Below are positions 32,597 to 59,059 of a DNA stretch of 64,000 nt, piece after piece (the stretch's first letter is position 1; each line of letters opens with the position of its first letter). The notes beneath the pieces are model-generated. The model was not told the origin of the DNA, did no database searches, and saw nothing but the letters and a program-made list of their open reading frames with translations. The position numbers and the translations under genes were made by a program. Source of the stretch: Luteimonas huabeiensis HB2 (lineage in GTDB: Bacteria; Pseudomonadota; Gammaproteobacteria; Xanthomonadales; Xanthomonadaceae); contig NZ_JAAN01000024.1 of assembly GCF_000559025.1 (NCBI RefSeq), forward strand, positions 124,001 through 188,000, written 5' to 3'.

Positions 32597-32617
32597 GGGG
32601 AAAGCGCCTTGGAAGCC

Positions 32618-32765
32618 GGGACTCGGGACTCGGGACTCGGAACTCGGAAAAGCAAACGCGACAGCTTGCGCCGCACGCCCCAAGGTCCCGGTGGAACGAC
32701 GAACGATCGGAAAGGCCGCCACCCCGCTCTTCCCGGGTCCCGAGTCCCGGGTCCCGGGTCCCGTC
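32618..32765. repeat. Heptamer-bounded inverted element 1 (argH-argC gap)
   Basis: Left arm: GGGACTC repeated in 7-base steps from 32618 to about 32645 (three perfect units, one with A for G). Right arm: TCCCGGG, TCCCGAG, TCCCGGG, TCCCGGG, TCCCGTC from 32731 to 32765, the inverse orientation of the same motif. About 85 unique bases separate the arms. Similar arm arrangements occur at 36251-36346, 37531-37670 and 58917-59050. Confidence 0.75.
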
Positions 32766-32777
32766 CCAACGCCATGC

Positions 32778-33746
32778 TCATGCCCCGTCCTCCCACGCAA
32801 TGCCCGTCAGCTCGTCGAAACCCAGCGCCGTATTGAGATTCTGCATCGCCTGGGTGGCCGCGCCCTTGAGCAGGTTGTCGAGCGTGGCCACCACCACCGC
32901 GCGGCGGCCGTCGGGCGCGACGGCGAAGCCGCCGACCTCGGCGCCGTGGCGGCCGGCGATCCGGCTCACCCAGGGCGCCTCGTCGGTCACCGCCACCAGC
33001 GGCTCGGCCGCGTAGCGCGCGCGGTAGCGGCCGGCGATCGCCTCGGCGTCGAAGGCCTCGCGCAGGTGCAGGTTCGCGGTCAGGGTGATGCCGCGGAAAT
33101 GCGGCGCCACGTGCGGCATGAACTCGACCGGGGCGCCCAGGTGCAGGCTCACCTCGCGCTCGTGCACGTGGCCCACCAGCGCGTAGGGCATGAGGTTGTC
33201 GCGCAGCAGCGCGGGGTCGTTGCGCTGCGAGGGCGTGGTGCCGGCGCCGGAATAGCCCGACACGCCGAACGCCTGGACCGGGCCCGCCAGCGCGTCCAGC
33301 AGCGGCGCGATCGCCAGTTGCATCGCGGTGGCGTAGCAGCCGGGATTGCTGATCCGCCGCTGGCCGGCGTAGCGCGCGCGGGTCAGCTCGGGCAGGCCGT
33401 AGTACCAGTCCGGGTCGAAGCGGTAGTCGGCCGACAGGTCCACCACCACGGTGGCTGGCGCGGCGCGGTCGATCGCCGCCACATAGGGCGCGGCCTTGCC
33501 GTTGGGCAGCGCCAGCACCACCGCGTCCGCGCCCTGGGCGGCGGCGGCCTCGGGGCCGTAGTTGCCGTAGCGCAGGTCGCCGGCAAAGCCGTCGATGTGC
33601 GCGTCCACGCGCTCGCCGTCCAGCTCGCGCGAGGACACGAAGGCCAGCCGCAGCGCCGGGTGCCCGGCGATCAGCCGGATCAGCTCCGCGCCGGTGTGGC
33701 CGCGCGCGCCGACGATGCCGACCGTGCGCACGCCCGGCGCGCTCAT
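32778..33746 (-). CDS. argC: N-acetyl-gamma-glutamyl-phosphate reductase ArgC
   Basis: 322 residues. NADP-binding [17 protein letters not shown] at the N-terminus and catalytic Cys in [14 protein letters not shown], with [12 protein letters not shown] and [17 protein letters not shown] typical of the short ArgC type. It reduces acetylglutamyl phosphate to the semialdehyde. The ATG overlaps the stop of the upstream kinase/synthase gene by four bases, so the two are translationally coupled. Confidence 0.96.
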
Positions 33747-35083
33747 GCCGCGGCCTCCTGCGCGGGCGGATCGATCAGCGTCGGCCGGTGCCGCGCGCAG
33801 TGCTCGGCGAAGAAGCGGATCTCGTCGAAGTCGCCGGTGCCGTACCAGAACACCTTCCACCGCTCCTGCTTGTAGCAGCCGTCGGACTCGGCGTAGTAGA
33901 AGATGTTGATCTGGTTGTCGTGGCGCGAGCGCCAGAACAGCTGCGGGGTCTCCTCGCGCATCACCTGCCACACCGCGCGCCCCAGGCCCTCGCCCTGCGC
34001 GTCCTCGAGCACCGCGAACTTGTCCAGGTAGACCCGGCCGTCGGCATCGGTCAGCAGCACCGCGGCGCGGTAGTTCTCGCTGACGTAGGCGCGCAGCAGC
34101 GGCGTGCGCTCGAAGTAGTCCGGGGCCAGCGCGCGGCCGAAGCTGGACTCGATCAGCGTGCGCAGGCGCGGCAGGTCCAGCGCGTCCCACGAGGCCGCGC
34201 GCAGCACGCGCTCGCCGCGGCGCACCAGGGTGCCGGAACCGCGGTGGGTGAACAGCTCCTTGGCCAGGTCGTCGGGCCGGGTGATCGAGACCGACGAGGT
34301 CAGCGGCAGCCCGTCGAGCAGTTCCTTGATCTGCTGGATCTTCAGCCGCATGCCGCCGTTGATCCAGGGCTGCGCCATCAGGTGGTCGTACTCGGTCGAG
34401 AGGTTGATCGAATCGATCACCTTGCCATCGGCGTCGAGCAGGCCGCCGGTGCCGGTGAGGAAGATGATCTTGTAGGGCTGCAGCACCCGCACCAGCTCGT
34501 TGGCGGAGACGTCGGCGTTGACGTTGAGGATCTGCCCGGACCGGGTCTCGCCGAGGCTGGCGATCACCGGGATCGAGCCCGCCTGCAGGCTGGCCTCGAT
34601 CGGCGCGAGGTTGACCGCGCGGACCTGCCCGACCAGCCCGTAGGTGTCCGCGTCCAGGTAGTCGGCCTCGAACACCCCGCCGGTGATCGAGGTCGCGCGC
34701 GCCCCGCCCTGCTGCAGCGCCTCCACCAGCGCCAGGTTGGAGGCCTGGAACACGCGACGTACGATCGCCAGCGCCTCCGGCGTGGTCACCCGCAGCCCGT
34801 CCACGGTGCGCTTCTCGATGCCCGCCGCGGCCAGTTCGGCATCGAGCTGCGGGCCGGCGCCGTGGACCACGATCGGGGTCAGCCCGACCTGCTGCAGGAA
34901 CGACAGCGACGAGGTCAGCGCGTCGAGATCGTCGCGCAGCACCGCGCCGCCGACCTTCACCACGGCGAAGCGCTTGGCGTCGAGCTGCGAGAAGCGCTTG
35001 AGGTACTGGCTGATCTCGCGCGCGCTGGCCATCGACGACAGCAGGCGGACGATGGTCTGGCGGGTCTGTTGGTGGGTCTGCAT
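33743..35083 (-). CDS. argB: Bifunctional N-acetylglutamate kinase/synthase
   Basis: 446 residues, longer than a stand-alone ArgB (about 300). Residues 30-290 are an amino-acid kinase domain ([53 protein letters not shown]); residues 295-440 are a GNAT acetyltransferase of the vertebrate-like NAGS type ([56 protein letters not shown]). Fused enzymes of this kind are known in Xanthomonas and catalyse the first two arginine steps. The gene follows argE and overlaps argC by four bases. A separate argA is not in the window. Confidence 0.95.
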
Positions 35084-35152
35084 GGTGCGGTGTGTGTCCG
35101 TGGGAGCGCGCTCGCGCGCGCGGTCGAGCGATGGCGATGGCGTCGGCGGCCG

Positions 35153-36238
35153 CTAGCCGCCGAGGATCCTGTGGACCGACTCGGCATAGGTGCGCAGTTG
35201 CGCCAGCGACACCCATTCGTCGGCGGTGTGGGCCTGGGCGATGTCGCCCGGGCCGTAGACCAGCGCGGTGTGGCCCGCGGCCGAGAACAGCGAGGCCTCG
35301 GTCCAGAAGTCCACCGCGTTGCCGATCGGCAGCCCGAGTTCGTCGGCGACGTCGCGCGCGGCCAGCCGGCGTTCCTCCGCGCGCGCGACGTCGCCGGACG
35401 GCAGGCTCGGCCCGCGGAAGGTCTCCTCGAACTGCGCCGCGGCCGGCTCGGCGAGGCCGGCGAAGTCCGCCAGCAGCGCGTCCGGATCCATCGACGGCAG
35501 CGGGCGGAAGCCGAAGCGCAGTTCGGCCGCCGGCGCGATCATGTTGGCCTTGATGCCGCCTTCGATGCGGCCGATGTTGAAGCGCAGCCCGGTCAGGCCG
35601 CCGAAGCGCGCGTGCGCCAGCGACTCGACGCGGTCCAGCGCGCGCGCGCCCCAGCGCACCGCCTGGTGCAGCGCGCTGGCGGATGCGTCCTGCCGGCCCG
35701 AGGCGTGCCCGGCGGTGCCGGCGAAGCGCATCAGCACCGAGCTGATGCCGCGATGGGCCAGCACCGCCTCGCAGCGCGTGGGCTCGGCGACCAGCACCGC
35801 CTCGAAGGACAGGCCGCGCGCCAGGAAGGCGGCGATGCAGCGCGGATCGTTGGCCTCCTCGTCGGAGGAGAACAGGAACGCCGCGTCGCCCTGGCTGGCG
35901 TTGGCGGCCGCGATCAGCGCCGCCGCCGCGCCCTTGATGTCGCACACGCCCAGCCCGACCACGCGGTCGTCCAGCCGCCGCATGACGTGCGGGTCCGCGC
36001 TCCAGTGCGGCGAGTCCGGCACCGTGTCCAGGTGCACGTTGAACAGGTACTTCGGCCGCCCGCGCACCGCGTACAGGCTCACCGCGCCGGCGCCGTGGTC
36101 GGTCACCTCGACCTCGAACCCCGGCAGCTGCGCGCGGATGTAGTCGAAGATCCCGCCCTCGGCCGCGATCGCGCGCGGCGGATTGCGGGTGTCGAAGGAC
36201 ACCAGGGCTTCGAGGTGCTGGAGGGTGGCGTCAAGCAT
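35153..36238 (-). CDS. argE: N-acetylcitrulline/acetylornithine deacetylase (ArgE')
   Basis: 361 residues of the M20 metallopeptidase family: [14 protein letters not shown] (metal His/Asp), [11 protein letters not shown] (catalytic Glu and metal ligand), [13 protein letters not shown] and a dimerisation domain in the middle ([15 protein letters not shown]). In Xanthomonas the equivalent enzyme removes acetyl from N-acetylcitrulline, because the carbamoyltransferase acts before deacetylation. The same preference is inferred here from the neighbouring argF'. It lies between argG and the kinase/synthase, and heptamer element 2 begins 12 bases before its ATG. Confidence 0.93.
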
Positions 36239-36250
36239 GCGGGGAGCAGA

Positions 36251-36346
36251 GGTCAGGGGCCGGGGGTCAGGGGGAAAGCAGGAGCCAGGTCAGACATCAG
36301 CGTCTCCCTGGCCCCTGGCCTCCGACCCCTGGCCCCTGGCCCCGCC
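36251..36346. repeat. Heptamer-bounded inverted element 2 (argE-argG junction)
   Basis: Left arm in 7-base steps from 36251: GGTCAGG, GGCCGGG, GGTCAGG, GGGAAAG. Right arm from 36306: CCCTGGC, CCCTGGC, CTCCGAC, CCCTGGC, CCCTGGC, CCCCGCC-like, in the opposite sense. The right arm lies inside the argG reading frame and encodes its last residues. The core between the arms is only about 27 bases. Confidence 0.75.
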
Positions 36347-37576
36347 GTTCACCTGCGCATACAGCGTGGAGCTCATGCCGAACAGCTTGATGAACCCCTC
36401 GGCCTCCTCGACGCCCCAGTCGGCGGACTGGGCGTAGGTGGCGTTGCCGGATTCCAGCAGGTGCGGCGAGGACACCGCGACGGCATCGACGCGGCCGCCG
36501 CGGGTCTCCAGCGTCACCTCGCCGGTCACCTTGGCCTGCGACGAGGCCAGGAACGCCTCCAGGTCGGTCTTCAGCGGATCGTGGAAGAAGCCCTCGTACA
36601 CCAGCTCCACCCACTTGCGCGCGACCTCCGGCTTGAAGCGGTTCTGCTGCTTGGTCAGCACCGCCTCCTCCAGCGCGCGGTGCGCGGCAAGCAGCGAGAC
36701 CAGGCCCGGGGCTTCGTAGACGATGCGGCCCTTGAGGCCGATGACGGTGTCGCCGGTGTACAGGCCGCGGCCGACGCCGTAGGGCGCGAACAGGGTGTTG
36801 AGCCGGGCCAGGATCTGCGCGCCCGGCAGCGGCTTGCCGTCGAGCTCCACCGCCTCGCCGCCGACGAACTTCAGCTTGACCGTCAGCGGCTCCGACGGCC
36901 ACGCGCTGCGCGGCGCGCACCAGCCGCGGGCGCCGTCGCCCGGCGCCTCCCAGCGGTCGATCTCGCCGCCGGACATGGTCACGCCCAGCAGGTTCTCGTT
37001 GATGGTGTACGCCTTCTGCTTGGCGCGCACGCCGAAGCCGCGCTCCTCCAGGTACTTCTGCTCGTAGGCGCGGGTCTGGGTGTGCTCCTTCTGGATCTCG
37101 CGGATCGGGGCGACGATCTGGTAGTCGCCCTGCGCCTTGATCGCCAGGTCGAAGCGCACCTGGTCGTTGCCCATGCCGGTGCAGCCGTGGGCGATGGCGC
37201 GGGTGCCCAGCTCCGCGGCGCGCGCGATCGCGGCATCGACGATCAGGTAGCGGTCGGAGACCAGCAGCGGGTACTGGCCCTGGTAGCCTTCGCCCGCCCA
37301 CACGAACGGCTTGACGAAGCTCTCCCAGATCGCCGGTCCGCCATCGACGGTGACGTGGCTGGCCACGCCCAGCTCCTCGGCGCGCTTCTCGATGAAGGCG
37401 CGCTCGTCGGCATCCACGCCGCCGGTGTCGGCGAACACCGTGTGCACCGTCCAGCCGCGCTCCTGCAGGTAGGGCACGCAGAAGCTGGTGTCGAGGCCGC
37501 CGGAGAAGGCGAGGACGATGTCCTTGGAGGGGCCAGAGGCCAGAGGCCGGGGGGCGGGGGATGATGACGTCGACAC
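36290..37576 (-). CDS. argG: Argininosuccinate synthase ArgG, with repeat-encoded ends
   Basis: 428 residues. ATP-pyrophosphatase motif [13 protein letters not shown] and the family segments [30 protein letters not shown] and [18 protein letters not shown]. It joins citrulline and aspartate. GTG 37574-37576 is supported by AGGAG eight bases upstream, which makes the N-terminus [20 protein letters not shown]; most homologues start near the [10 protein letters not shown] point. Residues 5-16 are encoded by the left arm of heptamer element 3, and the last 15 or so ([17 protein letters not shown]) by the right arm of element 2. Both tails look acquired rather than functional. Confidence 0.95.
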
Positions 37577-37670
37577 GTGGAGACTCCTGACGGAAAAAGA
37601 AAGAGTGTGGGTGGCGGACGAGTGCTCGGCGTCAGCCCTGGCCCCTGGCCCCTGGGCCCTGGGCTCCGAT
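37531..37670. repeat. Heptamer-bounded inverted element 3 (argG-argF' junction)
   Basis: Left arm from 37531: GGCCAGA, GGCCAGA, GGCCGGG, GGGCGGG, inside the argG 5' coding end. Right arm from 37636: CCCTGGC, CCCTGGC, CCCTGGG, CCCTGGG, CTCCGAT, inside the argF' 3' coding end. The core contains the argG start codon and ribosome-binding site. Confidence 0.75.
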
Positions 37671-38669
37671 CAGCGCCGCCATCACCGCCTTCTGCACGTG
37701 CAGCCGGTTCTCGGCCTCGTCGATGGCGATGCAGTTGGGGGAGTCCATCACCGCGTCGGTCGCCTTGACGTTGCGCCGCAGCGGCAGGCAGTGCGAGAAG
37801 ACGCCGTTGCGGGTCAGCGCCATCTTGGCCTCGTCGACGATGAAGTGCTTGTACTGGTCGCGGATGGGCTTTTCGGGCGCCCAGTCGCCGAAGTACGGCA
37901 GCGCGCCCCAGCTCTTGGCGTAGACCACGTCGGCGCCGGCGTAGGCGCTTTCGATGTCGTGGCTGACCGTCAGCGAGCCGCCGCTTTCGGCCACGTTCTG
38001 CTCGGCCCAGCCCATGTAGCGCTCGTCGAGGATGTAGTCGGGCGTGGGGCACAGCAGGGTCACGTCCATGCCCAGCCGGGTGGCGATGGTCAGCGCGGAA
38101 TTGGCCACCGCCGTATTGAGCGGCCTGGGGTGGTAGGTCCAGGTCAGCACGTACTTCTTGCCGCGCAGGTCGGTGGTGCCGAAGCGCTCCTGCAGGGCCA
38201 GCGCGTGCGCCAGCTCCTGGCAGGGATGGGTGATGGTCTCCATGTTGATCACCGGCACCGGCGAATACTTCGCGAACGACTTCAGCACGATGTCCTGGCG
38301 GTCGTACTGCCAGTCCACGAACTTCGGGAACGCGCGCACGCCGATCAGGTCGACGTAGCGGCCCAGCACCCGCGCGACCTCGGCGATGTGCTCCTCGGTG
38401 TCGCCGTCCATCGCCGTGCCCAGGTCGAATTCGATCGGCCACGCGTCCTTGCCCGGCTGCAGCACGATGGCGTGGCCGCCGAGCTGGAACGCGCCCAGCT
38501 CGAAGCTGGTGCGGGTGCGCATGGACGGGTTGAAGAACACCAGCGCGATCGAGCGGCCCTTGAGCGCATCGCCGAGCTTCTCGCGCTTGTAGCGCGCGGC
38601 CTCGGCCAGCAGCGCGTCGAGCCCGGCGCGGCTCCAGTCCTGGGTGTTGAGGAAGTGGGTGATCGGCAT
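37632..38669 (-). CDS. argF': N-acetylornithine carbamoyltransferase (AOTCase, ArgF')
   Basis: 345 residues from ATG 38667-38669 (an upstream in-frame ATG at 38726 lacks homology). Carbamoyl phosphate binding [15 protein letters not shown]; Trp 77 in KDAWPIEFD and Lys 302 in [13 protein letters not shown], both reported as hallmarks of the Xanthomonas campestris acetylornithine enzyme (Lys 302 carboxylated), are at the same positions. Ordinary OTCases lack them. It converts acetylornithine to acetylcitrulline. The last eight or nine residues (QGPGARGQG) are encoded by the right arm of heptamer element 3. First gene of the arginine cluster. Confidence 0.95.
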
Positions 38670-38759
38670 CGTGGGTCCTGCGTGTGGGTCGGGCCTGGCC
38701 GCACGGGCGGGTGCGGGACGGTGCATGGCGTATAGCGGGTGGACGTGACGCAGAAACGA

Positions 38760-38787
38760 AAGAACCCAGCGCGGCGGCTGGGTTCTT
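38760..38787 (-). terminator. Hairpin between the secreted-protein gene and argF'
   Basis: AAGAACCCAGC (38760-38770) pairs perfectly with GCTGGGTTCTT (38777-38787) across a six-base loop; on the minus strand TTCTTTCGTTTC follows. It probably terminates the transcript of the 38981-39511 gene before argF'. In the rest of the 38670-38980 gap, TATACG near 38728 on the minus strand is the only -10-like sequence for argF'. Confidence 0.7.
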
Positions 38788-38980
38788 CGTCTGAAACTCT
38801 GGAATGCGACGAGTTCCGGCTACCCAGCGAGGATGCGGGGGTCCGGTCGGCGCGCGCGCGAGGTCATCCCGGACGCCATGCGGGCGGAGGTGAGGATGTC
38901 GGCGTCGGCGCGGGTCGCGTTCATGGGCGCGGAATCCTCGCACGGCGCGGGGCGCGCCGCAAGCCCCGGGACGGGCCGGC

Positions 38981-39511
38981 TCACTCGCCGCTGGTACTCA
39001 CCACCGGGGTCACCGAGACCCGCACGCGCACCCGGTTGCCCGGGTCGTAGGGCAGCCGCGAACGGTACTTGACGCCCTTGTGCACGTAGTCGACCTCGTA
39101 GCCGATCGGGCGCCGGAACTCGCGCTCCACCGGCACCATCCGGCACTCGCCCGCGGCCGCCGGGGGCGCCTCCTCCGCCTGCTCGCCCGAGGCGAGCGCC
39201 TCGCGCACCGCCCCGACCACGCGCGACAGGCCGCGGCGCCCTTCCTGCGGCTGGCCGGTCACCGGGCTGGCGGCGTCGCAGCGCTCGACCATGCTGGTGG
39301 CGCGCAGCACCTGGTAGACCGGCTCGGCGCTAAGCACGCGGGCGTACTCGATGCGCACGTTCTCCTGCGGCGGCGCGGCCTGCAGCGCCGCGCGCTGGGC
39401 GCGCTGGTCGGCATGGATGCGCTGCGCCCGGGCCGGGATCGCCGTCGCGCCCGCCGCCAGCGCGGCGATCAGGACGAACGGCAGTGGGGCCTTCCGGCAG
39501 GGTGACGGCAT
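38981..39511 (-). CDS. Secreted protein related to glycine-zipper 17-kDa family, without the zipper
   Basis: 176 residues. Signal peptide (LPFVLIAALAAGATAIPARA, cut before QRI). The mature part has VRIEYARVLSAEPVYQVLRA near residue 55 and ends GYEVDYVHKGVKYRSRLPYDPGNRVRVRVSVTPV, split pieces that resemble the first and last parts of glycine-zipper 2TM outer-membrane proteins of xanthomonads. The glycine-zipper helices expected between them are replaced by an Ala/Glu-rich linker (GAVREALASGEQAEEAPPAAAGE). Two cysteines flank the linker. Function unknown; it is probably periplasmic. Confidence 0.65.
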   Translation of the reverse strand: MPSPCRKAPLPFVLIAALAAGATAIPARAQRIHADQRAQRAALQAAPPQENVRIEYARVLSAEPVYQVLRATSMVERCDAASPVTGQPQEGRRGLSRVVGAVREALASGEQAEEAPPAAAGECRMVPVEREFRRPIGYEVDYVHKGVKYRSRLPYDPGNRVRVRVSVTPVVSTSGE

Positions 39512-39634
39512 CTCGGACCATTCGGCGGTTAGCCGGATGAGTGTAGGCGTTCGGCGCGCGCACGGCCTGAATCCTCGCTGTCGTGGCCGGACCGGGGCCG
39601 GTAGAATCCCCGGGTTCGCCGCCATGTCCCGCCG

Positions 39635-41011
39635 ATGAGCCTGCGCCTCTACAACAGCCTGACCCGCCGCGTCGAGCCCTTCGCCCCGCGCGACCCCGCG
39701 TGCCCGACGATGTACGTCTGCGGGCCCACGGTCTACAACTACGTGCACATCGGCAACGCCCGCGGCCCGGTGGTGTTCGGCGTGCTCGCCGCGCTGCTGC
39801 GCCGCCGCCACGGCGCGTTGCGCTACGCGCGCAACATCACCGACGTCGACGACAAGATCAACGCCGCCGCGCGCGAACAGGGCGTGCCGATCTTGGCGAT
39901 CGCCGAGCGCTTCGCCGCCGCCTATCGCCAGGACATGGCCGCGCTCGGCGTGGCCCCGCCCGACATCGAGCCGGAAGCCACCGCCCACATCCCGCAGATC
40001 GTGGCGATGATCGAGCGCCTGGTGGAACGCGGCCACGCCTATGCCGCCGAGGGCCACGTGCTCTTCAGCGTCGAGAGCTTCCCCGCCTACGGCAAGCTCT
40101 CGCGCCGCGACCCCGACGAGATGCGCGCCGGCGCACGCGTGGAGGTGGCGCCCTACAAGCGCGATCCGGGCGATTTCGTGCTGTGGAAGCCCTCCGACGG
40201 CGACCTGCCCGGCTGGGACTCGCCCTGGGGCCGCGGCCGGCCGGGCTGGCACATCGAGTGCTCGGCGATGGCCGCCGCGCACCTGGGCGAGACCATCGAC
40301 ATCCACGCCGGCGGCGTCGACCTGCAGTTCCCGCACCACGAGAACGAGATCGCGCAGAGCGAATGCGCCCACGGCGGCGCCACCTTCGCCCGCTTCTGGC
40401 TGCACAACGGCATGCTCACGCTGTCCGGCGCGAAGATGTCCAAGTCGCTGGGCAACATCGAGAAGGTGCACGACCTGCTGCAGCGCCACCCGGCCGAGGC
40501 GCTGCGCTACGCGCTGCTGTCGGCGCACTACCGGCAGCCGCTGGACTGGTCGGACGGCCTGATCGAGCAGTCGGCGCGGACCCTGGACCGCCTCTACGGC
40601 ACCCTGCGCGACCTCGGCGACGTGGAGGCGGCGCCGGAAATCCCGGAGGCGATCGAGGTCGCGCTCGACGACGATCTCAACACCCCGCAGGCGCTGGCCG
40701 AGCTGGCCCGGATCGCCGGCGAGGCGCGCAAGGCCGAGGGCGCGGAGCGCGGCGCGCACAAGGCCCGGCTGCTCGGCGCCGGCCTCGCGCTGGGGCTGCT
40801 GCAGCAGGCCCCCGAGGCCTGGTTCGGCCGCGGCGGCGCGGACGACGGCGGCGACGAGGCGCGCATCCAGGCGCTGGTGGACGAGCGCAGCGAAGCCAAG
40901 CGCGTCCGCGACTTCGCCCGCGCCGACGCCATCCGCGACCGGCTCGCCGCCGAAGGCGTCGTGCTGGAGGACACGCCGCAGGGCGTACGCTGGGCCAGGA
41001 AGCGCGCCTAG
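39635..41011 (+). CDS. cysS: Cysteinyl-tRNA synthetase CysS
   Basis: 458 residues. Class I motifs: zinc Cys and HIGH-like signature in [19 protein letters not shown], further zinc ligands in WHIECSAMA and [12 protein letters not shown], and KMSKSLGN for ATP. It charges tRNA-Cys in the cytoplasm. TAGAAT at 39602-39607 is a candidate -10, leaving a leader of about 20 bases without a strong Shine-Dalgarno. It is divergent from the secreted-protein gene and upstream of sufE. Confidence 0.97.
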
Positions 41012-41166
41012 GCGACCGGCAGCGCGCCCTTGGCGGCCGGCCCGTCAGGGCCGCCTCGATGGCGGACGCGCTGCCGGCGTCCGCCGCTTCCGACGACCGC
41101 CCCGCCGGGCGGCCGCAGCCGCTCGCCGCGATGCGGGCGGCATCGACGACCCATGATAGAGACGAC

Positions 41167-42881: not shown

Positions 42882-42886
42882 GGTGT

Positions 42887-43167
42887 ATCGACATTCGACC
42901 TGCAGCGTCGGGCGGTTCCTTTTCCCGCAAGCAGGACCATCTTGTTCCTTCTCCCGCAAGCGGGACCATCTTGTTCCTTCTCCCGCAAGCGCAGCGCCGG
43001 ATGAGGGCGGCTTTTGCACGCCCACGGCCTGCCCCCCATCCGCCTTCGGCACCTTCCCCCGCAAGCGGGGGAAGGGAAAAACAAAGTGCTCCCCGCTTGC
43101 GGGGGAAGGGAAAAACAGAGTGCCCCCCGCTTGCTGGGAAGGCGCCTTGCGCACGCTGAATGTCGAT
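42887..43167. repeat. Composite palindromic repeat element, copy C, with 10-bp terminal inverted repeats
   Basis: Ends are ATCGACATTC (42887-42896) and GAATGTCGAT (43158-43167), exact inverse complements. Inside are left units with CCCGCAAGCAGG/CCCGCAAGCGGG spaced about 29 bp, the GGATGAGGG ... CCCCCCATCC centre, and right units with CCCCCGCAAGCGGGGG, CCCCGCTTGCGGGGG and a decayed copy. Copies A (14403-14690) and B (30030-30112) share the modules. Small open frames inside are judged spurious. It fills most of the 42882-43268 gap. Confidence 0.75.
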
Positions 43168-43268
43168 TCCGCCTAGGCGCCGCGTCGGCGGCTTCGCGCC
43201 CCGCGCATCGGCCGCGTCCTATCATGCGCGCCACGCGCGCCCCCATCCGCAGCAGGCCCCCTCTCCGC

Positions 43269-44264: not shown

Positions 44265-44271
44265 GCGGCGG

Positions 44272-46074: not shown

Positions 46075-46150
46075 ATCCTTCGGGCAGCGCACGGCGGATA
46101 CCGCACCGCCCGCACGATCCCCGCGTGCGCGGGAACCGATGGCCGCGAAA

Positions 46151-47113: not shown

Positions 47114-47221
47114 GTCGTTCCGTCCTCGATTCCCTTGGATGGGAAAGCGGGCTGTTATACCCTGCGGCGGCTGCAGCGGCAACCGCGCCCGACGCGCCCA
47201 CGTTCACGCCGCGCAGACATC

Positions 47222-49640: not shown

Positions 49641-49701
49641 CCTGCGGCGCCGGCGGCGCGCGGCCGGCGGCCCCGAGCGCGAACGCGACGGAGCGGCGCG
49701 G

Positions 49702-50628: not shown

Positions 50629-50748
50629 AGGACACCGTGGGGGCGGCGGAAACGGGCGCCCAGTGTACCGGCAGCCGCCCGGACGCTCCCGAAACGCTGC
50701 GTTGTGGCGATTCCCGGCGCCTGTCGCGGCGATAGGCGCCGCGCCGCT

Positions 50749-51423: not shown

Positions 51424-51450
51424 GCGCGGATCGCGGCGATGTGCCCGCGC

Positions 51451-52131
51451 TCAGGCGCGGCGCGCGGGCCAGCGCGCGGGATCGAGCAGTTCGCCCGGCC
51501 GATCCACCAGCACGTCGCCGCCCCAGTCCTGCGGCAGGTCGTCGCCCAGCCGGTAGCCCCACAGGGCGACCACCGAGGGCATGCCGGCCGCGCGCGCGGC
51601 CTGGATGTCGCGCTCGTCGTCGCCCACGTACACGCAAGCGCCTGGCTCGGCCTCCAGCGCGCGCGCGGCGTGCAGCAGCGGCAGCGGGTGTGGCTTGCGC
51701 TCGGCCAGCGAGTCGCCGCCCACCAGCACCTTGCAGCGAAACTGCCAGTCCAGCGCGCGCAGCACTTCGCTGGCGAGGTACTCGGGCTTGTTGGTCACCA
51801 CGCCCCACACCGCGCCGTCGTCCTCCAGCGCCTGCAACAGCGCCTCGACGTCCTCGAACGGACCGCCGTGGCGGCCGAGTTCCTCGCGGTAGATCGCCAG
51901 GAACTCCGGGATCATGTCCTGCCGCGCCGCCAGGTCGGCATCGGGGAAGGCCGCGGCCGACATCGCGCGGGCGCCCTTGGAAACGTGCGGGCGCAGCTCC
52001 TCCAGCCGCATCGGCGGCCGCGCGCGGCGCTCGCGCATGCGATTGACCGTGGCCAGCATGTCGGGCGCGCTGTCGAGCAGGGTGCCGTCGAGGTCGAACA
52101 GCACCGTGCGCGGGAAGCGGCCGCCGCTCAT
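51451..52131 (-). CDS. mupP: HAD phosphatase, MupP/Gph type
   Basis: 226 residues. HAD motifs: [28 protein letters not shown] in [10 protein letters not shown], and [19 protein letters not shown], with a helical cap between. General annotation would be phosphoglycolate phosphatase. In Pseudomonas the homologue beside ubiG and an MTA deaminase is MupP, the N-acetylmuramic acid 6-phosphate phosphatase of peptidoglycan recycling; the same three genes in the same order here favour that role. It overlaps ubiG by four bases. Confidence 0.8.
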
Positions 52132-52850
52132 GGCGCCGCTTCCGGCCTGAGCGCGCAGGCGAGATAGTTGACGTCGGTGCGCGAGACCAGGCGCGCGCTG
52201 CCGCGCCACGGCTCGTACATCAGCCCGGACACGTCCTCCAGCGCCAGGCCGGTCGCGCGCAGCCACGCGGCGAGCTCGGAGGGGCGGATGAAGTCCCGAT
52301 AGCGGTGGGTGCCGCGCGGCAGCAGGCGGGCGACGTATTCCGCGCCCACGATCGCCAGCGCGAACGCCGCCGGGGTGCGGTTGAGGGTGGACACGAACAG
52401 CCGCCCGCCGGGCTTGAGCAGCCGCGCGCAGGCGGCCAGGATGGCGCCGGGATCGGGCACGTGCTCGAGCATCTCCATGCAGGTGACCGCATCGAAGGCG
52501 CCGGGTTCGGCCTCGGCCAGCGCCTCGGCCGATTGCACGCGGTAGTCGATGTCCGCCCCGCTCTCGCGCGCGTGCAGGCGGGCGACGCGGATCAGGTCGG
52601 CGGCGAGGTCGATCGCGGTGACCTCGGCGCCGGCCAGGGCCATGGCCTCGCTCAGCAGGCCGGCGCCGCAGCCGACGTCGAGCACCCGCGCCCCGTCCAG
52701 CCGCACGCGCTCGGCCACGTACTCGAGCCGCGCGGGATTGAGCGCGTGCAGCGGCTTCTGCGGGCCGTCCGGGTCCCACCAGCGGTTGGCGAGGGCGGAG
52801 AACTTGTCCAGTTCTTCCTGGCGGTAGTTGTGGACGGTCTCGGCGGTCAT
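52128..52850 (-). CDS. ubiG: Ubiquinone biosynthesis O-methyltransferase UbiG
   Basis: 240 residues. [19 protein letters not shown] and [12 protein letters not shown] identify UbiG; SAM-binding motif I is [16 protein letters not shown], with AIDLAADLI and [11 protein letters not shown] following. It methylates both hydroxyl positions during ubiquinone formation. The stop overlaps the ATG of the phosphatase gene (ATGA), and mtaD lies 35 bases upstream on the same strand. Confidence 0.96.
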
Positions 52851-52885
52851 GGCGGACTCCCGGGGGATGGAGGGGGCGCCGGCGC

Positions 52886-54223
52886 TCAACGGCCCAGCGC
52901 GGCGATGCGCCCGCGCCACTCGCGGGCGTTGGCGACCAGCGCCTCCGGGTCCAGGCCGACCAGGACGCGGTCGCGCAGGCGCTCGCGGCCGGCGATCCAC
53001 ACGTCGGTCACCTGGTGGCGGCCGGTGGCGTAGACCAGTTGCGAGTGCACATGATGCAACGGCTGGGTCTCCAGCGCCGACAGGTCCACGCAGGCTAGGT
53101 CGGCCTGCTTGCCGGGCTCGATCGAGCCCACCAGGTGGTCCAGCCCGATCGCCCGCGCCCCGCCCAGGGTGGCGGCGCGCAGCGCCGAGGCGGCGTCCAG
53201 CGCGGCGGCGTCCTGCGCCACCGCCTTGGCGAGGATCGCCGCGGTGCGGGTCTCGCCAAACATGTCGAGGTCGTTGTTGCTGGCGCAGCCGTCGGTGCCG
53301 ATGGCCAGGTTGGCGCCGGCGCGCGCCAGCGCGCAGGCCGGGCAGAAGCCCGAGGCCAGCTTGAGGTTGGATTCCGGGCAGTGCACCACGCTCACCCCGC
53401 GCTCGGCGCACAGGCGGATCTCGGCCTCGGTCAGCTGGGTCATGTGCACCGCGATCAGGCGGTCGTTGAACAGGCCCAGCCGGTCCAGCCGCGCGATCGG
53501 GCGCTGCCCGTGCGCCTTCAGCGACTGCTCGACCTCCTGCGCGGTCTCGTGCAGGTGCAGGTGCACGGGCACGTCGAGCTGGTCGGCCAGCATCCGCACG
53601 CGCTCGAAGTTGGCGTCGTTGACGGTGTACGGCGCGTGCGGCGCGAACGCGGTCGAGATCAGCGGATCGTCGCGCCACTGGTCGTGGACCTCGCCGGCGC
53701 GATCGAAGTACTCGTCGTCGCTCCTGGCCCAGGCGGTCGGGAAGTCGATCACCGGCAGCCCGACCCGGGCGCGGAAGCCGTGGCGCTTGTAGGTCGCGGC
53801 CTGCACGTCGGGAAAGAAGTAGTTCTCGTTGACGCAGGTGGTGCCGCCGCGCAGCATCTCGGCGATCGCCAGGGTCACCCCGTCGGCGACGAACTCCGGG
53901 CCGATCACCGCGCCCTCGATCGGCCAGATGTGCTCCTGCAGCCAGACCATCAGCGGCAGGTCGTCGGCGACCCCGCGCAAGAGCGTCATCGGATTGTGGG
54001 TGTGGGCATTGACCAGCCCGGGGATCAGCGCCGCGTCCGGCCGCGACACCACCTCGGCGGCCCGGAAGCGCGCGCGCGCCTCGGCGCGCGGCAGCACCGC
54101 GACGATCGCGCCGTCGCGCACCGCCACCGCGTGGTCTTCCAGCACCACCGCGTGCGGCTCCACCGGCACCACGTGGCCGGCCTCGATCAGCAGGTCGCAG
54201 GTCTCGCTCGGGGTTGCGGTCAT
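52886..54223 (-). CDS. mtaD: 5'-methylthioadenosine/S-adenosylhomocysteine deaminase (TRZ/ATZ family)
   Basis: 445 residues from ATG 54221-54223, preceded by GAGGGA (a longer in-frame extension to 54280 is not supported). Amidohydrolase metal site: [51 protein letters not shown] and [14 protein letters not shown]. It deaminates MTA to methylthioinosine, clearing a by-product of polyamine and quorum-signal synthesis; the substrate is inferred from the Pseudomonas homologue in the same neighbourhood. It starts four bases after the preceding gene's stop. Confidence 0.9.
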
Positions 54224-54227
54224 TCCC

Positions 54228-55073
54228 TCAGCCACCTTTCTCGCTCCAGAAGAACAGATTATCGAACGGGTCCGTGGCATAGGCGTCGCCGTCGTAGCGC
54301 AGCACGCGGCGGACCCGGCGTTCGCGGGTTCCGACCGCTTCGCCGCGCTCGGCGGTCTCGCGCGACACGATCGCGGTCAGCGCCAGATCGGAGAACGCGC
54401 GCTCGCCCGGCGGCTGCACGGTGAGCACCGCGCGCGCGCGGTCGATCACGGTGCGCTGCGGCCCCCACGCGCAGGCGCTGCCCTCGACCATCGCCCAGCT
54501 GTCGAGCCAGGTGGAGAACACCGGGCGCAGCGCGTCGCCGTCGCGCACCATCAGGGTCAGTTCGCGGTCGAAGCCGCGCTCCGGGCAGCTGGGCCCGCGC
54601 GCCGCGTTCGACAGCACCACGCCGAAGGCGCGCACGCCGGGGGCGAGGTCGTAGCGGGCGGTGTCCAGCCGCAGGCCGCCGGGCCGCAGCGCGAATGCCG
54701 CGTCCTGCTCGAGCGTGCGCGCGTGCCGGGCCAGCACGCGCCCCGCGACCGGGTCCAGCATCGCGGTCAGCAGCCGCAGCGGCGCTTCGTCGGCGCCGTC
54801 GGCGCCGGCCTCGGCGAACACCGCCGCGGCCAGGCGGATCGCCGGATCGTAGGGCCAGTCGCGGCAGATCGTGTCGACCGGCGCCTGCGCCGCTCCGGCC
54901 GTCAGCAGGGCCACGCTCGCGGCGTCGCAGGCCGCCTGCTGCACCTGCGCGCCCGCCGGCAGCCACGCCGGCAGCCACGCCAGCAGCGCGATCGCGGCCA
55001 GCGCACCGCCCGCGCGCCGCGCCCTGCGGGCGCCGGCGCGCGCGAGGCGATGCGGTCGGCGCGTCGGCGGCAT
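54228..55073 (-). CDS. Hypothetical secreted protein
   Basis: 281 residues. A basic N-terminus and hydrophobic helix (GALAAIALLAWLPAWLPAGA) form a signal peptide. The mature protein has five or six cysteines (AACDAAS, TICRDWPYD, GPSCPERGF, GSACAWGPQ) and a VFSTWLDSWAMVEG segment, with a beta-rich C-terminus. I recognise no family. It is placed between efp and mtaD, four bases from the latter, and may be cotranscribed. Confidence 0.7.
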   Translation of the reverse strand: MPPTRRPHRLARAGARRARRAGGALAAIALLAWLPAWLPAGAQVQQAACDAASVALLTAGAAQAPVDTICRDWPYDPAIRLAAAVFAEAGADGADEAPLRLLTAMLDPVAGRVLARHARTLEQDAAFALRPGGLRLDTARYDLAPGVRAFGVVLSNAARGPSCPERGFDRELTLMVRDGDALRPVFSTWLDSWAMVEGSACAWGPQRTVIDRARAVLTVQPPGERAFSDLALTAIVSRETAERGEAVGTRERRVRRVLRYDGDAYATDPFDNLFFWSEKGG

Positions 55074-55080
55074 CGGACCG

Positions 55081-55647
55081 CTACTTGACCCGGCTGACGT
55101 ATTCGCCGGAGCGGGTGTCCACCTTGATGACCTCGTCCTGGCCCACGAACAGCGGCACCCGGACCACCGCGCCGGTCTCCAGCGTGGCCGGCTTGCCGCC
55201 GCCGCCGGAGGTGTCGCCGCGCACGCCGGGATCGGTCTCGACGATCTTCAGCTCCACGAAGTTGGGCGGGGTGACCTGGATCGGCGTGCCGTTCCACAGC
55301 GTCACCACGCAGTCCTCCTCGCCCTTGAGCCACTTCTCGGCGCCGCCCATGCCGGCCTTGTCGGCCTGCACCTGCTCGAAGGTCTCCTGCTGCATGAAGT
55401 GCCAGTACTCGCCGTCGGAGTACAGGTACTGCATGTCGGTGTCCACCACGTCGGCCGCCTCGACCGAGTCGGTGCTCTTCATGGTGATTTCCTGCACCCG
55501 GCCGGTGCGGATCTGGCGGTACTTGACCCGGGTGAAGGCCTGGCCCTTGCCCGGCTTGACGTATTCGGTGTCGGTGATGATCGCGGGCTCGCCGTTGACC
55601 AGGATCTTCATCCCGTTCTTGACGTCGTTCATGCCGTAGCTGGCCAT
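55081..55647 (-). CDS. efp: Elongation factor P
   Basis: 188 residues. EF-P domains: KOW-like N-terminus with the modifiable Lys 34 in [19 protein letters not shown], the central OB domain ([15 protein letters not shown]) and the C-terminal OB domain ([23 protein letters not shown]). It relieves ribosome stalling at proline runs. The lysine and its PGKGQAF setting fit beta-lysylation by EpmA with EpmB; epmB is the divergent neighbour. epmA is not in the window. Confidence 0.97.
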
Positions 55648-55726
55648 CGTTGCTCCTGCTGCCCGCCGCGGCGGGGATAGAATGTCGGATTCGCGCCCGG
55701 GGCCCGGGCGCACGCGATAGCCCGAC

Positions 55727-56734
55727 ATGATACCCGCAGCCCCCCTTCCCATGCAGCCGCGGCGCTGGCAGCAGGCCTGGCGCGAGGCCGTGCGCGATCC
55801 CCGCGAACTGCTGGCCCTGCTGGGGCTGGAGGCCCTGGCCGCACGGGTGCCCGCCGAGGCCGCGGCGCAGTTCCCGCTGCGGGTGCCGCGCGGCTTCGTG
55901 GCGCGCATGCGCCACGGCGATCCCGCCGACCCGCTGCTGCGCCAGGTGCTGCCGCTGGACGAGGAACTGCGGCCGGTTCCCGGCTTCGGCCTGGACGCGG
56001 TCGGCGACGGCGCCGCGCGCGCGGCGCCGGGGGTGATCCGCAAGTACCGCGGCCGCGCCCTGCTGGTGGCCACCGGCAGCTGCGCGGTGCACTGCCGCTA
56101 CTGCTTCCGTCGCCACTTCCCCTACGCCGAGGAGACCGCGGCCGCCGCCGGTTGGCGCGGCGCGGTCGAGGCCATCGCCGCCGATCCGGACCTCGACGAG
56201 GCAATCCTGTCCGGCGGCGACCCGCTGTCGCTGGCCACGCCCAAGCTCGCCGAGCTGACCGCCGCGCTGGCCCGGCAGGCGCCGCACCTGCGCCGCCTGC
56301 GCATCCATACCCGGCTGCCGGTGGTGCTGCCCGAGCGGGTGGACGCCGAACTGACCGGCTGGCTGGCCGCCTTGCCCTGGCCGGTGGCGGTGGTGGTGCA
56401 CGCCAACCACGCCAACGAGTTCGATCCCGCGGTCGATGCGGCGATGGCGCGCCTGCGCGCGGCGGGCGCGACGCTGCTCAACCAGGCCGTGCTGCTGCGC
56501 GGCGTGAACGATTCCGTCGAGGCGCTGGCCGCGCTGTCCGAGCGCGGCTTCGCCGGCGGCGTGCTGCCCTACTACCTGCACCAGCTCGACCGGGTGGCCG
56601 GCGCGGCCCATTTCGAGGTCGAGGACGCCCGCGCGCTGGCGCTGCACGCCGCGCTGCGCGAGCGCCTGTCGGGCTATCTGGTGCCGAAACTGGTGCGCGA
56701 GGTGGCCGGCGACGCGTCCAAGCGCCCGCTGTAG
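55727..56734 (+). CDS. epmB: EF-P beta-lysylation protein EpmB (lysine 2,3-aminomutase-like)
   Basis: 335 residues. Radical-SAM cluster [15 protein letters not shown] (Cys 119, 123, 126), preceded by LLVATGSCA, and the family segments [40 protein letters not shown] and [11 protein letters not shown] with the PLP region. It converts (S)-alpha- to (R)-beta-lysine, which EpmA attaches to EF-P. TAGAAT at 55678-55683 is a candidate -10 in the 79-base region shared with the divergent efp gene. Confidence 0.95.
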
Positions 56735-56837
56735 GCCCGCCCTTCGCCGTGGACGCCGCCGCGCGCCCGTGGCATAACGCCCGCCTCCGGGGCGCGTCGC
56801 GCGCCGCGGGGGCATGAACCGCTCCGGGGAGAGCCGC

Positions 56838-58913
56838 ATGGCGAAGCAGGACAACCCACTCCGGCTGGTGCTGGTGGACGACAGCGTCGAGGATGCCGAG
56901 GCCATCGTCAGCTGCCTGCGCAACGCCGGCATCGCGGTGCGGCCGCTGCGGCCGTCCGGGGCCGAGGAACTGGAGGCGCTGCTGGCCGGGCAGGCCATCG
57001 ACCTGGTGCTGGCCGCGCAGCGGCCGGGCGCGCTGCCGCTGGCGGAGGTCGCGCAGCGGGTCCAGGCCAGCGGCAAGGACATCCCGCTGATCGCCGTCAG
57101 CGATGCGGTGGACGAGGCGAGCTTCGTCGAGGCGCTGACCCTGGGCGCGCGCCACGTCGCCCCGCGCCAGCGCCCGCAACTGCTGCTGGCGCTGGTGCGC
57201 AGCGAATGGGGCGACCTGGAGGCGCGGCGCTCGCTGCGCCGGCTGGAAGCCCGCGTGCGCGAGACCGAGCGCCGCTGCGATGCGCTGATCGACTCCTCGC
57301 GCGACCCGATCGCCTACATCCACGAGGGCATGCACATCCGCGCCAACGCGGCCTACCTGGAGATGCTGGGGCTGTCGGACTTCGAGGACATCGAGGGCAT
57401 GTCGCTGCTGGACATGGTCGCGCCGCAGCAGCTGGACGACTTCAAGCAGCTGCTCAAGGAGCTCTCGCGCGGCCAGCCGCCGCCGCCGCGCTACGAGGTG
57501 CAGGCGCGCGACGCCGAGGGCAACCCGTTCCCGGCGACGATGGAGTTCACCGCCGCCCAGTACGAGGGCGAGCCCTGCCTGCAGGTGATCTTCCGCCGCG
57601 CCGAGGTGGATCCGGAACTGGCCCGCCAGGTCGAGGAACTGCGCAGGCGCGACCAGGTCACCGGCCTGCTCAACCGCCCCACCTTCCTGCGCGCGCTGGA
57701 GGACGCGGTCTCGGCCTCGGCCGCCGACAACCGCACCCACGGCCTGCTGCTGATCGAGCCGGACCACTACCAGCGCCTGCTGCAGGAGATCGGCCTGGAT
57801 TCCGCCGACGCCATGCTGGCGGCGCTGGCCGAGCGCCTGCGCGCGGCGATCGGCGAGGACGCGATCGCCGCGCGCTACGCCGAGCACCGGCTGGCGGTGC
57901 TGCTGCGCGACGCCGACTACGCCGCCACCGAAGCGTTGGCCGAACGGGTGCGGGCCGCCTTCGCCGGCGAGATGTTCCAGATCGGCGCGCACTCCAGCGT
58001 GGTCACCGCGAGCATCGGCGGCGTGCAGATCGGCGAGAAGATCGCCAGCGTCAGCCAGGTCCTGGCGCGCGCCGACGCCGGCGTGGCCTCGGCGCTGGGC
58101 GTGGGCGGCAACCGCTGCGAGATCTTCGACCCCGCCGCGGCCGACCGCGCCGAGGAGGAGCACGTGCAGGCCTGGGTGGATCGCCTGCGCGACGCCCTCG
58201 ACCGCGACGGCTTCGTCCTGCACTACCAGCCCGTGGTCAGCCTGCAGGGCGACACCGGCGCGATGTACGAGGCACTGCTGCGGCTGGACGCCGGCGACGG
58301 CGAGCTGGTGCAGCCGCTGACCTTCCTGCAGATCGCCGAGGAACACGGCCTGCTGTGGGAGATCGACCACCACGTGGTCGGCCAGGCCATCGCCCGCATC
58401 GGCGAGCGCATGCGCGCCGGCAGGCCGACCACCCTGCTGGTCAAGATCAGCCAGGCCTCGCTGCACGACGACAGTCTGGTGCGCTACATCGGCGAGCAGC
58501 TGGCCAAGCAGCAGGTGCCGGGCGAATACCTGGTGCTGGAACTGCCCGAGGCCAAGGTGTTCACCCACCTCAAGGCCACCCGGGACTTCGCCGAGGCGAT
58601 CGGCCGCTACGACTGCCGGCTGGCGCTGGAGCACTTCGGCATCGGGCTGGATTCGTTCCAGTTGCTGGCCCACCTGCAGCCGCACCTGCTCAAGCTCGAC
58701 CGCAGCTTCAGCGAGGACCTGCCGCAGAATCCCGACAACCAGCGCCGCATCGACGAGATCGTCGCCAGGGCCCGCGAGCTGGGCATCCGCACCATCGCCG
58801 ACGCGGTCCAGGACGCGGCCAGCATGTCGATCCTGTTCACCGCCGGCATCGACTACGTGCAAGGCAGGTTCCTGGCCGCGCCCGGTCCACGGATGGACTA
58901 CGACTTCGAGTGA
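56838..58913 (+). CDS. fimX: FimX-like REC-PAS-GGDEF-EAL protein with degenerate domains
   Basis: 691 residues from ATG 56838-56840, preceded by GGGGAGAG. Residues 8-120: receiver-like domain with DD at 14-15 but Ala at the usual phospho-Asp site (LVLAAQ). 150-255: PAS (LIDSSRDPIAYIHEG). 270-430: GGDEF fold in which the signature reads YAEHR. 445-690: EAL domain retaining EAL (478-480) but with VKISQAS, LALEHFGIG and DAVQD replacing the metal and catalytic residues. This combination fits FimX, a c-di-GMP receptor that controls type IV pilus function through PilZ/PilB. It is unlikely to make or cut c-di-GMP. Confidence 0.85.
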   Translation: MAKQDNPLRLVLVDDSVEDAEAIVSCLRNAGIAVRPLRPSGAEELEALLAGQAIDLVLAAQRPGALPLAEVAQRVQASGKDIPLIAVSDAVDEASFVEALTLGARHVAPRQRPQLLLALVRSEWGDLEARRSLRRLEARVRETERRCDALIDSSRDPIAYIHEGMHIRANAAYLEMLGLSDFEDIEGMSLLDMVAPQQLDDFKQLLKELSRGQPPPPRYEVQARDAEGNPFPATMEFTAAQYEGEPCLQVIFRRAEVDPELARQVEELRRRDQVTGLLNRPTFLRALEDAVSASAADNRTHGLLLIEPDHYQRLLQEIGLDSADAMLAALAERLRAAIGEDAIAARYAEHRLAVLLRDADYAATEALAERVRAAFAGEMFQIGAHSSVVTASIGGVQIGEKIASVSQVLARADAGVASALGVGGNRCEIFDPAAADRAEEEHVQAWVDRLRDALDRDGFVLHYQPVVSLQGDTGAMYEALLRLDAGDGELVQPLTFLQIAEEHGLLWEIDHHVVGQAIARIGERMRAGRPTTLLVKISQASLHDDSLVRYIGEQLAKQQVPGEYLVLELPEAKVFTHLKATRDFAEAIGRYDCRLALEHFGIGLDSFQLLAHLQPHLLKLDRSFSEDLPQNPDNQRRIDEIVARARELGIRTIADAVQDAASMSILFTAGIDYVQGRFLAAPGPRMDYDFE

Positions 58914-58916
58914 GGC

Positions 58917-59050
58917 GGGGGTCAGGGGCCAGGGCTCAGGGGCCAGGGGCAAAGAAGAAGCCCGCCTCGCGGCGGGCTCTTCGCATGCGGTCCGAAGGCA
59001 GGACTCGGCTTCTCCCTGGCCCCTGGCCTCCGATCCCTGGCCTCTGGGCC
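58917..59050. repeat. Heptamer-bounded inverted element 4 (fimX-htpX gap)
   Basis: Left arm in 7-base steps: GGGTCAG, GGGCCAG, GGCTCAG, GGGCCAG up to about 58950. Right arm, inverse sense, from about 59013: CCCTGGC, CCCTGGC, CTCCGAT, CCCTGGC, CTCTGGG. A bidirectional terminator hairpin sits in the core. Right-arm units, including CTCCGAT, match those of elements 2 and 3. Confidence 0.75.
58959..58978. terminator. Bidirectional terminator between fimX and htpX
   Basis: AGCCCGCC (58959-58966), loop TCGC, GGCGGGCT (58971-58978). On the minus strand TCTTCTTTG follows, on the plus strand CTTCGC, so it suits htpX better than fimX. The two genes converge on it. Confidence 0.7.
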
Positions 59051-59059
59051 CCCCGCCCG

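Follow-up and report, generated by a model that had tools for sequence, protein, structure and literature searches.

The four inverted elements considered here lie in a 64,000-nt stretch of Luteimonas huabeiensis HB2 (contig NZ_JAAN01000024.1, positions 124,001 to 188,000; hereafter the window, G000:C24:124001-188000 in the 4.30 Mb HB2 assembly, G000), and they belong to a family of paired heptamer arrays found at many gene junctions of this genome. In each element a G-rich array of 7-base units (the G-arm) faces a C-rich array (the C-arm) across a short core. The elements are variants of a kind of heptamer repeat that forms inverted pairs in Xanthomonas. Rehm et al. described this class, with its inverted pairs, in 2015 (PMC4692102), and the initial annotation was therefore wrong in stating that no named family fits. 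The unit itself, which we call the dialect, differs between related genomes. We tentatively interpret the elements, with a confidence slightly short of even, as intercistronic stem-loops at gene boundaries that evolve in concert, a reading made from sequence comparison.

In the window, the four elements and their orientation (G-rich left, C-rich right in 4/4) were confirmed in the sequence and by 7-base rows of Tandem Repeats Finder for 8/8 arms, with scores of 33-59 (32617-32647/32731-32763, 36247-36273/36306-36343, 37531-37548/37636-37662 and 58918-58950/59014-59051 for elements 1 to 4, respectively); the same low threshold (30) gave nine further period-7 rows in the window, with scores of 30-46. 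A period-7 autocorrelation scan of the window returned six segments, every one an arm of the four elements; two arms were below its threshold, the left one of element 2 and the right one of element 4. The scored detector found the identical six arms, as compared with 0-3 segments in each of 20 first-order Markov simulations; for other periods, it found 8 segments of period 6 and none of periods 5, 8, 10, 11 and 13. As initially annotated, three elements are at arginine gene junctions, namely argC/argH (element 1), argE'/argG (element 2) and argG/argF (element 3), and element 4 is between a GGDEF/EAL gene and htpX, which are convergent; flanking genes were named for the window elements only. 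The reported recurrence of CTCCGAT between elements was also found, this unit or its complement ATCGGAG occurring 4 times in the window, twice at elements 3 and 4.

The G-arm of element 1, (GGGACTC)n, occupies positions 32617..32649 on the forward strand, on the side of argH (start 32596), and is followed by an inner box, GGAAAAGC (32646..32653, +); an inverted near-copy of the box, GCTCTTCC (32726..32733, +), precedes the C-arm, (TCCCGRG)n (32731..32763, -), which is 14 nt away from the argC stop (32778). In element 2 the G-arm, GAGGTCA-GGGGCCG-GGGGTCA-GGGGGAAAGC (36249..36279, +), adjoins the argE' start (36238) and the C-arm, (CCCTGGC)n (36306..36343, -), runs into the argG coding end. The G-arm of element 3, (GGCCAGA)n (37528..37560, +), is within the N-terminal codons of argG, after the called GTG start (37574-37576), and its C-arm, (CCCTGGC)n (37636..37664, -), runs into the argF coding end. 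Hence arms enter the C-termini of argF and argG and the N-terminus of argG, the latter ahead of the conserved KDIVLAF. Since this arm is inside the N-terminal codons (37528-37576), ArgG has a repeat-encoded stretch that is specific to the species; in several relatives that lack the element, ArgG begins just before KDIVLAF. Element 4 has its G-arm (58918..58950, +) 4 nt past the stop of the GGDEF/EAL gene (56814-58913), a core (58951..59013, no strand assigned) with the inner boxes AAAGAAGAAGC ... GGCTTCTCCC and an internal GC-rich hairpin (GCCCGCC..GGCGGGC), and its C-arm, (CCCTGGC)n (59014..59051, -), 8 nt away from the htpX stop end (59060). Core length in the four elements is approximately 26-81 bp, depending on the choice of the arm end. 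An Rfam search of window positions 30000-60500 gave one match and none at the elements; the match, 38813-38885 (-) upstream of argF, is to Xoo5, a small RNA of Xanthomonadaceae, with 50.7 bits at a threshold of 50.

Heptamer arrays are spread over the genome. The pattern CCCTGGCCCCTGG, allowing at most 1 mismatch, occurs 178 times in the 4.30 Mb of HB2 as compared with 33 times for the reversed pattern. In 864 kb of the genome, at a score of at least 11, there were 56 arrays of period 7 and only 4-7 for periods 4, 5, 8, 10, 11 and 13; multiples of three, which coding DNA favours, mostly equalled or exceeded the period-7 number at this score (83 for period 6, 68 for period 9, 68 for period 12 and 42 for period 15). 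At a score of at least 14, period 7 ranked top with 41 arrays in the same 864 kb, periods 6, 9, 12 and 15 had 15, 16, 15 and 7, the other non-multiples had 0-1, and period 14, the double of 7, had 26. The Markov simulations and the period-7 excess led us to reject chance or low complexity, although at weak scores most multiples of three do match period 7.

To count elements we used a sample of 1.015 Mb of the genome, with contigs chosen from motif matches and partly around them; genes were called by a custom codon-usage caller and arm orientation was assigned by purine fraction. The sample contained 49 elements (28 pairs and 21 single arms), a density that is not a genome average, and 42/49 were outside called genes and 7/49 inside. 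Neighbouring arrays on opposite strands were always in the order G then C, both in the 864 kb (18/18) and in the 1.015 Mb (28/28, with 0 in the order C then G); same-label neighbours were also present (2 GG and 3 CC). The random low-complexity sequence devoid of inverted pairing that the initial annotation had considered as the alternative is thus not what the genome contains, and its proposal was supported at many gene junctions: the elements form a defined class, their 7-base step is strict and their inverted layout is fixed. Among the 28 pairs, 22 are between co-directional genes, 2 between convergent and 2 between divergent genes, and 2 in called genes, the sample having 252 co-directional, 51 convergent and 104 divergent spacers of at least 80 bp; elements in divergent spacers are fewer than expected, which is no more than suggestive (p = 0.056). 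Many elements span the whole spacer, from a few bases past the stop codon up to near the next gene. The suggested link with arginine genes is unsupported, as is arginine-specific regulation as a general account, given 49 elements in 1.0 Mb and a fourth window element beside the GGDEF/EAL gene and htpX.

Arms usually have 4 (22/58) or 5 (15/58) units. Adjacent units are identical in 64/139 cases, as compared with 38 when shuffled, which supports 7-base slippage within arms. Non-dialect units are rarer in inner (13/77) than in outer positions (27/77; p = 0.016), and we tried a polarity of old outer and new inner units as an account of this; the signal is weak and was not relied on, because the association with order gave p = 0.053 and the box fixes the inner end. 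By eye, some cores resemble bidirectional terminators (element 4; C21:58564) and many do not, and no GTAG-tagged REP palindrome was seen beside the arms of the listed elements. At G000:C13:52133-52499, the core and the C-arm are in three tandem copies, which by eye look like half an element that was duplicated locally and recently. Tandem Repeats Finder also reported, in the window, 29- and 34-base tandem arrays with CCCGCAAGCGGG-type palindromes (14433-14557, 42915-42991 and 43056-43142); like palindromes, a second extragenic palindrome family, are within or beside the cores of some heptamer elements (C10:125010, C14:344743 and C21:22024).

Much of this layout is already known. In the account of Rehm et al., Xanthomonas genomes have 70-75 convergent inverted pairs of G-rich heptamer arrays each, mostly between aligned genes, with the G-strand pointing away from the nearest open reading frame and four units preferred, and 83% have kept their gene context between Xcc and Xac while length and sequence vary (PMC4692102); hence neither the pair layout nor the retention of junctions is new. 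The HB2 arrays share with these repeats the tandem G-rich heptamers at many, mostly intergenic loci (42/49 outside called genes), the exclusively convergent G-then-C pairs (28 in HB2, 8 in its sister G014 and 0 in the opposite order) and the mode of four units (22/58 arms). They differ in the unit: the Xanthomonas class is defined by GGGNATC with at least one GGGAATC (PMC4692102), whereas the HB2 dialect is GGGGCCA, with a minor GGGACTC, and relatives have GTGATTC without G-tracts. Since the GGGNATC unit is not that of HB2, we considered its arrays as a variant of the Xanthomonas kind, outside the narrow class. Wholesale unit replacement between genomes, the sharing of a dialect by the two arms and the inner box go beyond the parts of that account drawn on here (PMC4692102). 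Our additions to the known kind are the G-then-C constancy in a Luteimonas-like genome, the inner box, the dialects and the G-tract-free GTGATTC arrays. Heptanucleotide repeats of cyanobacteria are named STRR. Seven-base tandem repeats are likewise present in spacers of prokaryotes in the SPADE survey (PMC6344855) and of cyanobacteria such as Calothrix, and those of Nostoc, unlike the HB2 arrays, are rarely paired (PMC4692102). Our literature search (open-licence records, mainly titles and abstract openings) found Rehm et al. 2015 as the sole report of inverted heptamer arrays.

Dialects differ between genomes. The 343 units counted in HB2 include 105 GGGGCCA, 43 GAGGCCA, 42 GGGGTCA, 26 GGGGCCG and 21 GGGACTC, whereas in the sister G014 GGGAATC accounts for 28/83 units, accompanied by related units. 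Counts of the three patterns GGGRNTC, GTGATTS and GRGGYCR, on which our genome dialect counts rest, were 32, 0 and 158 in G000; 67, 0 and 0 in G014; 8, 26 and 28 in G023; 166, 198 and 0 in G028; 45, 92 and 0 in G034; and 0, 14 and 0 in G016, with reversed-pattern controls of 0-6 in these six genomes. By these counts some genomes have two or three dialects. Nine elements in a 400 kb portion of G028 had two arms legible by eye, 6 being GTG/GTG and 3 GGGAAT/GGGAAT, and one single arm holds blocks of both units. Many argF/argG elements of Xanthomonas are of the GGGAATC type. In G048, from another family, arrays are mostly long and single, with 2 GC among 10 clusters; one single array (G048:C1:139181-139457) has approximately 40 heptamers, whose unit shifts blockwise along its length.

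The comparison with the sister showed that junctions are retained across such a change of unit. The sister sample had neighbouring opposite-strand arrays in the order GC in 8 cases and CG in 0, plus 1 CC. Of 52 orthologous spacers, 7 had arrays in both genomes, 5 in HB2 only, 3 in the sister only and 37 in neither, so that 7/12 junctions with an HB2 element were occupied in the sister as compared with 3/40 others (Fisher p = 0.0005), a count in which a few arrays are weak. Median spacer identity was 0.59 where both genomes had arrays and 0.83 where neither had, with 0.62 for unrelated spacers, and the flanks were approximately 95% and 92% identical, respectively. We also read the alignments row by row (19 rows, two of which are one locus). 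In 7/19 rows, HB2 arms of a single dialect face a sister element that has another dialect in both arms (argF/argG, C14:317463, C13:25413, C13:41394, C13:52133, C13:53909 and C21:59410); 2/19 have a lone sister arm (argG/argE' and C21:58564), 1/19 has similar GGGATTC-type single arrays in both genomes (C14:315413), 1/19 has a GC-rich stretch that is similar in the two genomes (C14:340451), and in 8/19 the sister has no heptamer element. Homology of the orthologous cores was undetected in 5/7 pairs, the remaining two giving 0.05-0.07; whole spacers therefore turn over, and in-place rewriting of the arms around a conserved core was rejected. Junctions thus stay occupied as spacers and cores diverge: the sequence is replaced, and its layout and position are kept.

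Low spacer identity where elements are present (0.59, near the 0.62 of unrelated spacers and well under 0.83), homogenisation within arms and the weak pairing of individual units described below are what would be expected if the elements had no function, and arose by slippage and hairpin template switching in spacers under weak constraint, where only gene ends would tolerate them. We consider this origin unlikely, because local slippage should not give one new unit to dispersed loci, nor fix the orientation and the inner box in three genera, and because junctions are retained between HB2 and its sister.

The inner box, GGGAAAAGC (or a near form) or AARAGC, directly follows many G-arms and is mirrored ahead of the C-arm. 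In HB2 it was found at 25/54 arms, as compared with a shuffled mean of 3.4 (maximum 10); the opposite strand gave 6 and the outer flank 3. Other genomes are a better test, because the motif was picked after viewing the HB2 arms. There, the box was at 16/23 arms in G028 (2.0 shuffled; outer flank 6/23), 7/23 in G014 (1.1 shuffled; opposite strand 4), 23/39 at 29 arg loci of Xanthomonas (2.4 shuffled; opposite strand 7) and 8/15 at 11 arg loci of Pseudoxanthomonas (0.6 shuffled), the Xanthomonas and Pseudoxanthomonas counts being from orthologous, non-independent loci. In the window, both sides of element 1 have it and so, in a longer version, do both sides of element 4; element 2 has it on the left only, and it is absent from element 3. 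An outer motif, GCC near the array start, was at 11/23 arms in G028 (shuffled mean 2.2, maximum 8); at 7/23 (shuffled mean 3.1, maximum 9) it is not clear in G014.

A recurrent inner motif, together with the outer GCC of G028, would suit mobile units similar to miniature inverted-repeat transposable elements (MITEs) or REPINs, with heptamer arms and moved by a transposase, in which dialects would be subfamilies amplified at different times. Copy number is indeed patchy across the genus, and arms of one HB2 element share a dialect (among the 28 pairs, 22 CCA/CCA, 3 ACTC/ACTC, 0 CCA/ACTC and 3 with the left arm unclassified). The cores speak against such units: the HB2 cores of at least 20 nt (22 of 28) resemble one another no more than shuffled sequences do, hence there is no copied unit, and copying of whole elements was rejected. 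Moreover, the profiles PF01797 (Y1_Tnp, RAYT) and PF00078 (RVT_1) had 0 matches in G000 (99.97% complete), other transposases and reverse-transcriptase families being unsearched and past activity possible; a Y1_Tnp match is present in 39/61 genomes. The dedicated enzyme suggested by the initial annotation is accordingly unproven, RAYT mobility or an RVT_1 reverse-transcriptase writer is unlikely in HB2 unless since lost, and spread as mobile units seems to us distinctly unlikely. With REPINs and BIMEs (Bertels and Rainey 2011, PMC3116915) the elements share the extragenic inverted doublet, the spacer and a predicted hairpin; unlike them, the HB2 arms are tandem heptamers and not REP palindromes, and no Y1 transposase match is present.

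The stem-loop interpretation draws on the G-then-C order, the inner box, the gene context, the retained junctions and the slippage described above, and also on predicted folding and the relation between partner arms. In predicted RNA folds the two arms pair in 4/4 window elements (-95.4, -69.6, -63.9 and -99.2 kcal/mol; z of -5.6, -4.9, -3.0 and -5.8 for elements 1 to 4), element 1 being trimmed to 148 nt and the fold of element 4 having two inner hairpins. At argF/argG across species (seven duplicate loci were removed beforehand), 31/90 spacers have two arrays; the complementarity of partner arms was 17.7 as compared with 11.3 permuted (0/2000 permutations; the sequences are related), and dialect labels agree in 23/31 spacers.

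A number of observations weigh against this interpretation. Single arms are frequent (21/49), although two of them are window elements 2 and 4, scored as singles because one arm each is under the detection threshold. Labels disagree in 8/31 argF/argG spacers, four of which have a mainly GTG left arm and a GGG right arm. At the three variable unit positions in HB2, pairing of partner arms (0.632) does not exceed that of random arms (0.672), and the sense strand has 59 A.C mismatches as compared with 18 G.U wobbles, with 127 matched. Were a sense-RNA stem under selection, the reverse of this excess would be expected. Both figures weaken a strict RNA-hairpin reading, and unit-level selection on sense-RNA pairing is unsupported by either. 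In addition, all three unit patterns are absent from 15 of the 36 other genomes in the genus, with other dialects possible there, and the element is therefore dispensable. The intercistronic RNA structure proposed by the initial annotation may thus still form, while its expected consequence at the level of units, a pairing of partner arms better than random, was not found.

One unit bias concerns the sense strand. GGGGTCA (sense TGACCCC) is concentrated in the sense 3' arm, before the start of the next gene (34/99 units, as compared with 2/90 in the other arm); at the level of arms, T at position 5 gave p = 0.003, and positions 2 and 7 gave p = 0.063 and 0.030. As 7 is not divisible by 3, a run of three TGACCCC units gives every reading frame a stop codon. 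We have no explanation of this bias that we trust.

GTGATTC arrays, which have no GGG, bear on the form that may be under selection. They are at the argF/argG junction in G031, G021 and G005 with the layout unchanged, and among the GTGATT matches listed for G034, G032, G023 and G005 at least 20 close opposite-strand pairs, read by eye, are all in G-then-C order. Arms of 4 or 5 units, the commonest sizes (22/58 and 15/58), would suit a G-quadruplex, in which four G-tracts fold as DNA or RNA near gene ends; this form was studied by Rehm et al., who obtained by circular dichroism quadruplex signatures for Xanthomonas and Nostoc units (PMC4692102). However, the three-tetrad quadruplex is not a shared property, because GTGATTC arms without G-tracts keep layout, box and junctions, and G016 has 14 GTGATT and 0 GGGRNTC matches. 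A quadruplex alone also leaves the head-to-head pairing and the inner box unaccounted for, and as the functional form it appears very improbable.

Dialects common to dispersed loci seem to need either a trans-acting factor or arm-to-arm gene conversion. The GGGGCCA dialect is present in G000 (158) and in the more distant G023 (28) and absent from the sister G014 (0), the identity of argE' to that of HB2 being 88% in G023 and 94% in G014; G000 and G023 both vary at unit positions 2, 5 and 7, the sole positions free in the pattern. Dispersed loci that share a dialect, and genomes that differ in it, would fit a sequence-specific partner acting in trans, in the simplest case a DNA-uptake receptor, with the arrays as multivalent uptake signals spread by transformation and pairs settling at gene ends. 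It fits too that the arms, and not whole elements, carry the dialect, since cores are unshared between copies. DNA uptake sequences (DUS) are single 10-12-mers. Those of Neisseriaceae resemble the arrays in that dialects differ between genomes and in having pairs in inverted orientation at gene ends or terminators; they are, however, common inside genes too (PMC3630211), whereas the HB2 units are tandem and only 7/49 elements are inside called genes. The analogy would account for dialects and inverted pairs; the uptake reading is improbable. The same low probability applies to its broader form, in which the arrays would be the genomic half of a recognition system and the trans-acting half (an uptake receptor, a DNA- or RNA-binding factor or an array-writing factor) would set the 7-base word, so that a change of specificity would rewrite both arms of arrays genome-wide and leave the junctions and the AARAGC box in place.

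Two observations regard the arg cluster in other records. Spacers without heptamers often carry other inverted repeats (CCCTCTCC.., GTAGAGCC- or GTAGGAGC-like, and CCCGCGCAGGCGGG; seen in L053, L101-L103, G063, G035, G019, G030, G018 and G003), as if the arg-cluster junctions collected different extragenic palindromes. The record L077, titled Bacillus subtilis SK7B5 contig00037, has a xanthomonad-type arg cluster with an argE' 85% identical to that of the window, and is probably mislabelled or contaminated.

Taken together, each arm is a short tandem heptamer array (mode 4-5 units), often with the AARAGC box at its inner end, and two arms stand head to head in a spacer, often from near the stop to near the next start and sometimes into coding ends. 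According to the stem-loop interpretation that we tentatively prefer, they would form stem-loops in the cell that may act at gene boundaries, in protection of the mRNA 3'-end, processing or termination, or insulation of neighbouring cistrons, and certain junctions would tolerate the elements and probably favour them. Arms lengthen and homogenise through 7-base slippage, and the elements of a genome mostly have one or a few unit dialects in common, which could be replaced genome-wide by a process that we can only propose.

That the repeat word differs between related genomes while layout and many locations persist is unexplained. If the recognition-system reading were true, the dialect switching between sister species would be the footprint of a change in the specificity of the factor. 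The GTGATTC dialects provide a natural test of hairpin versus quadruplex. More generally, sister dialects at orthologous junctions make it testable what process alters dispersed repeats in concert, and the same contrast bears on which property of the arrays is selected, be it pairing, quadruplex or recognition.

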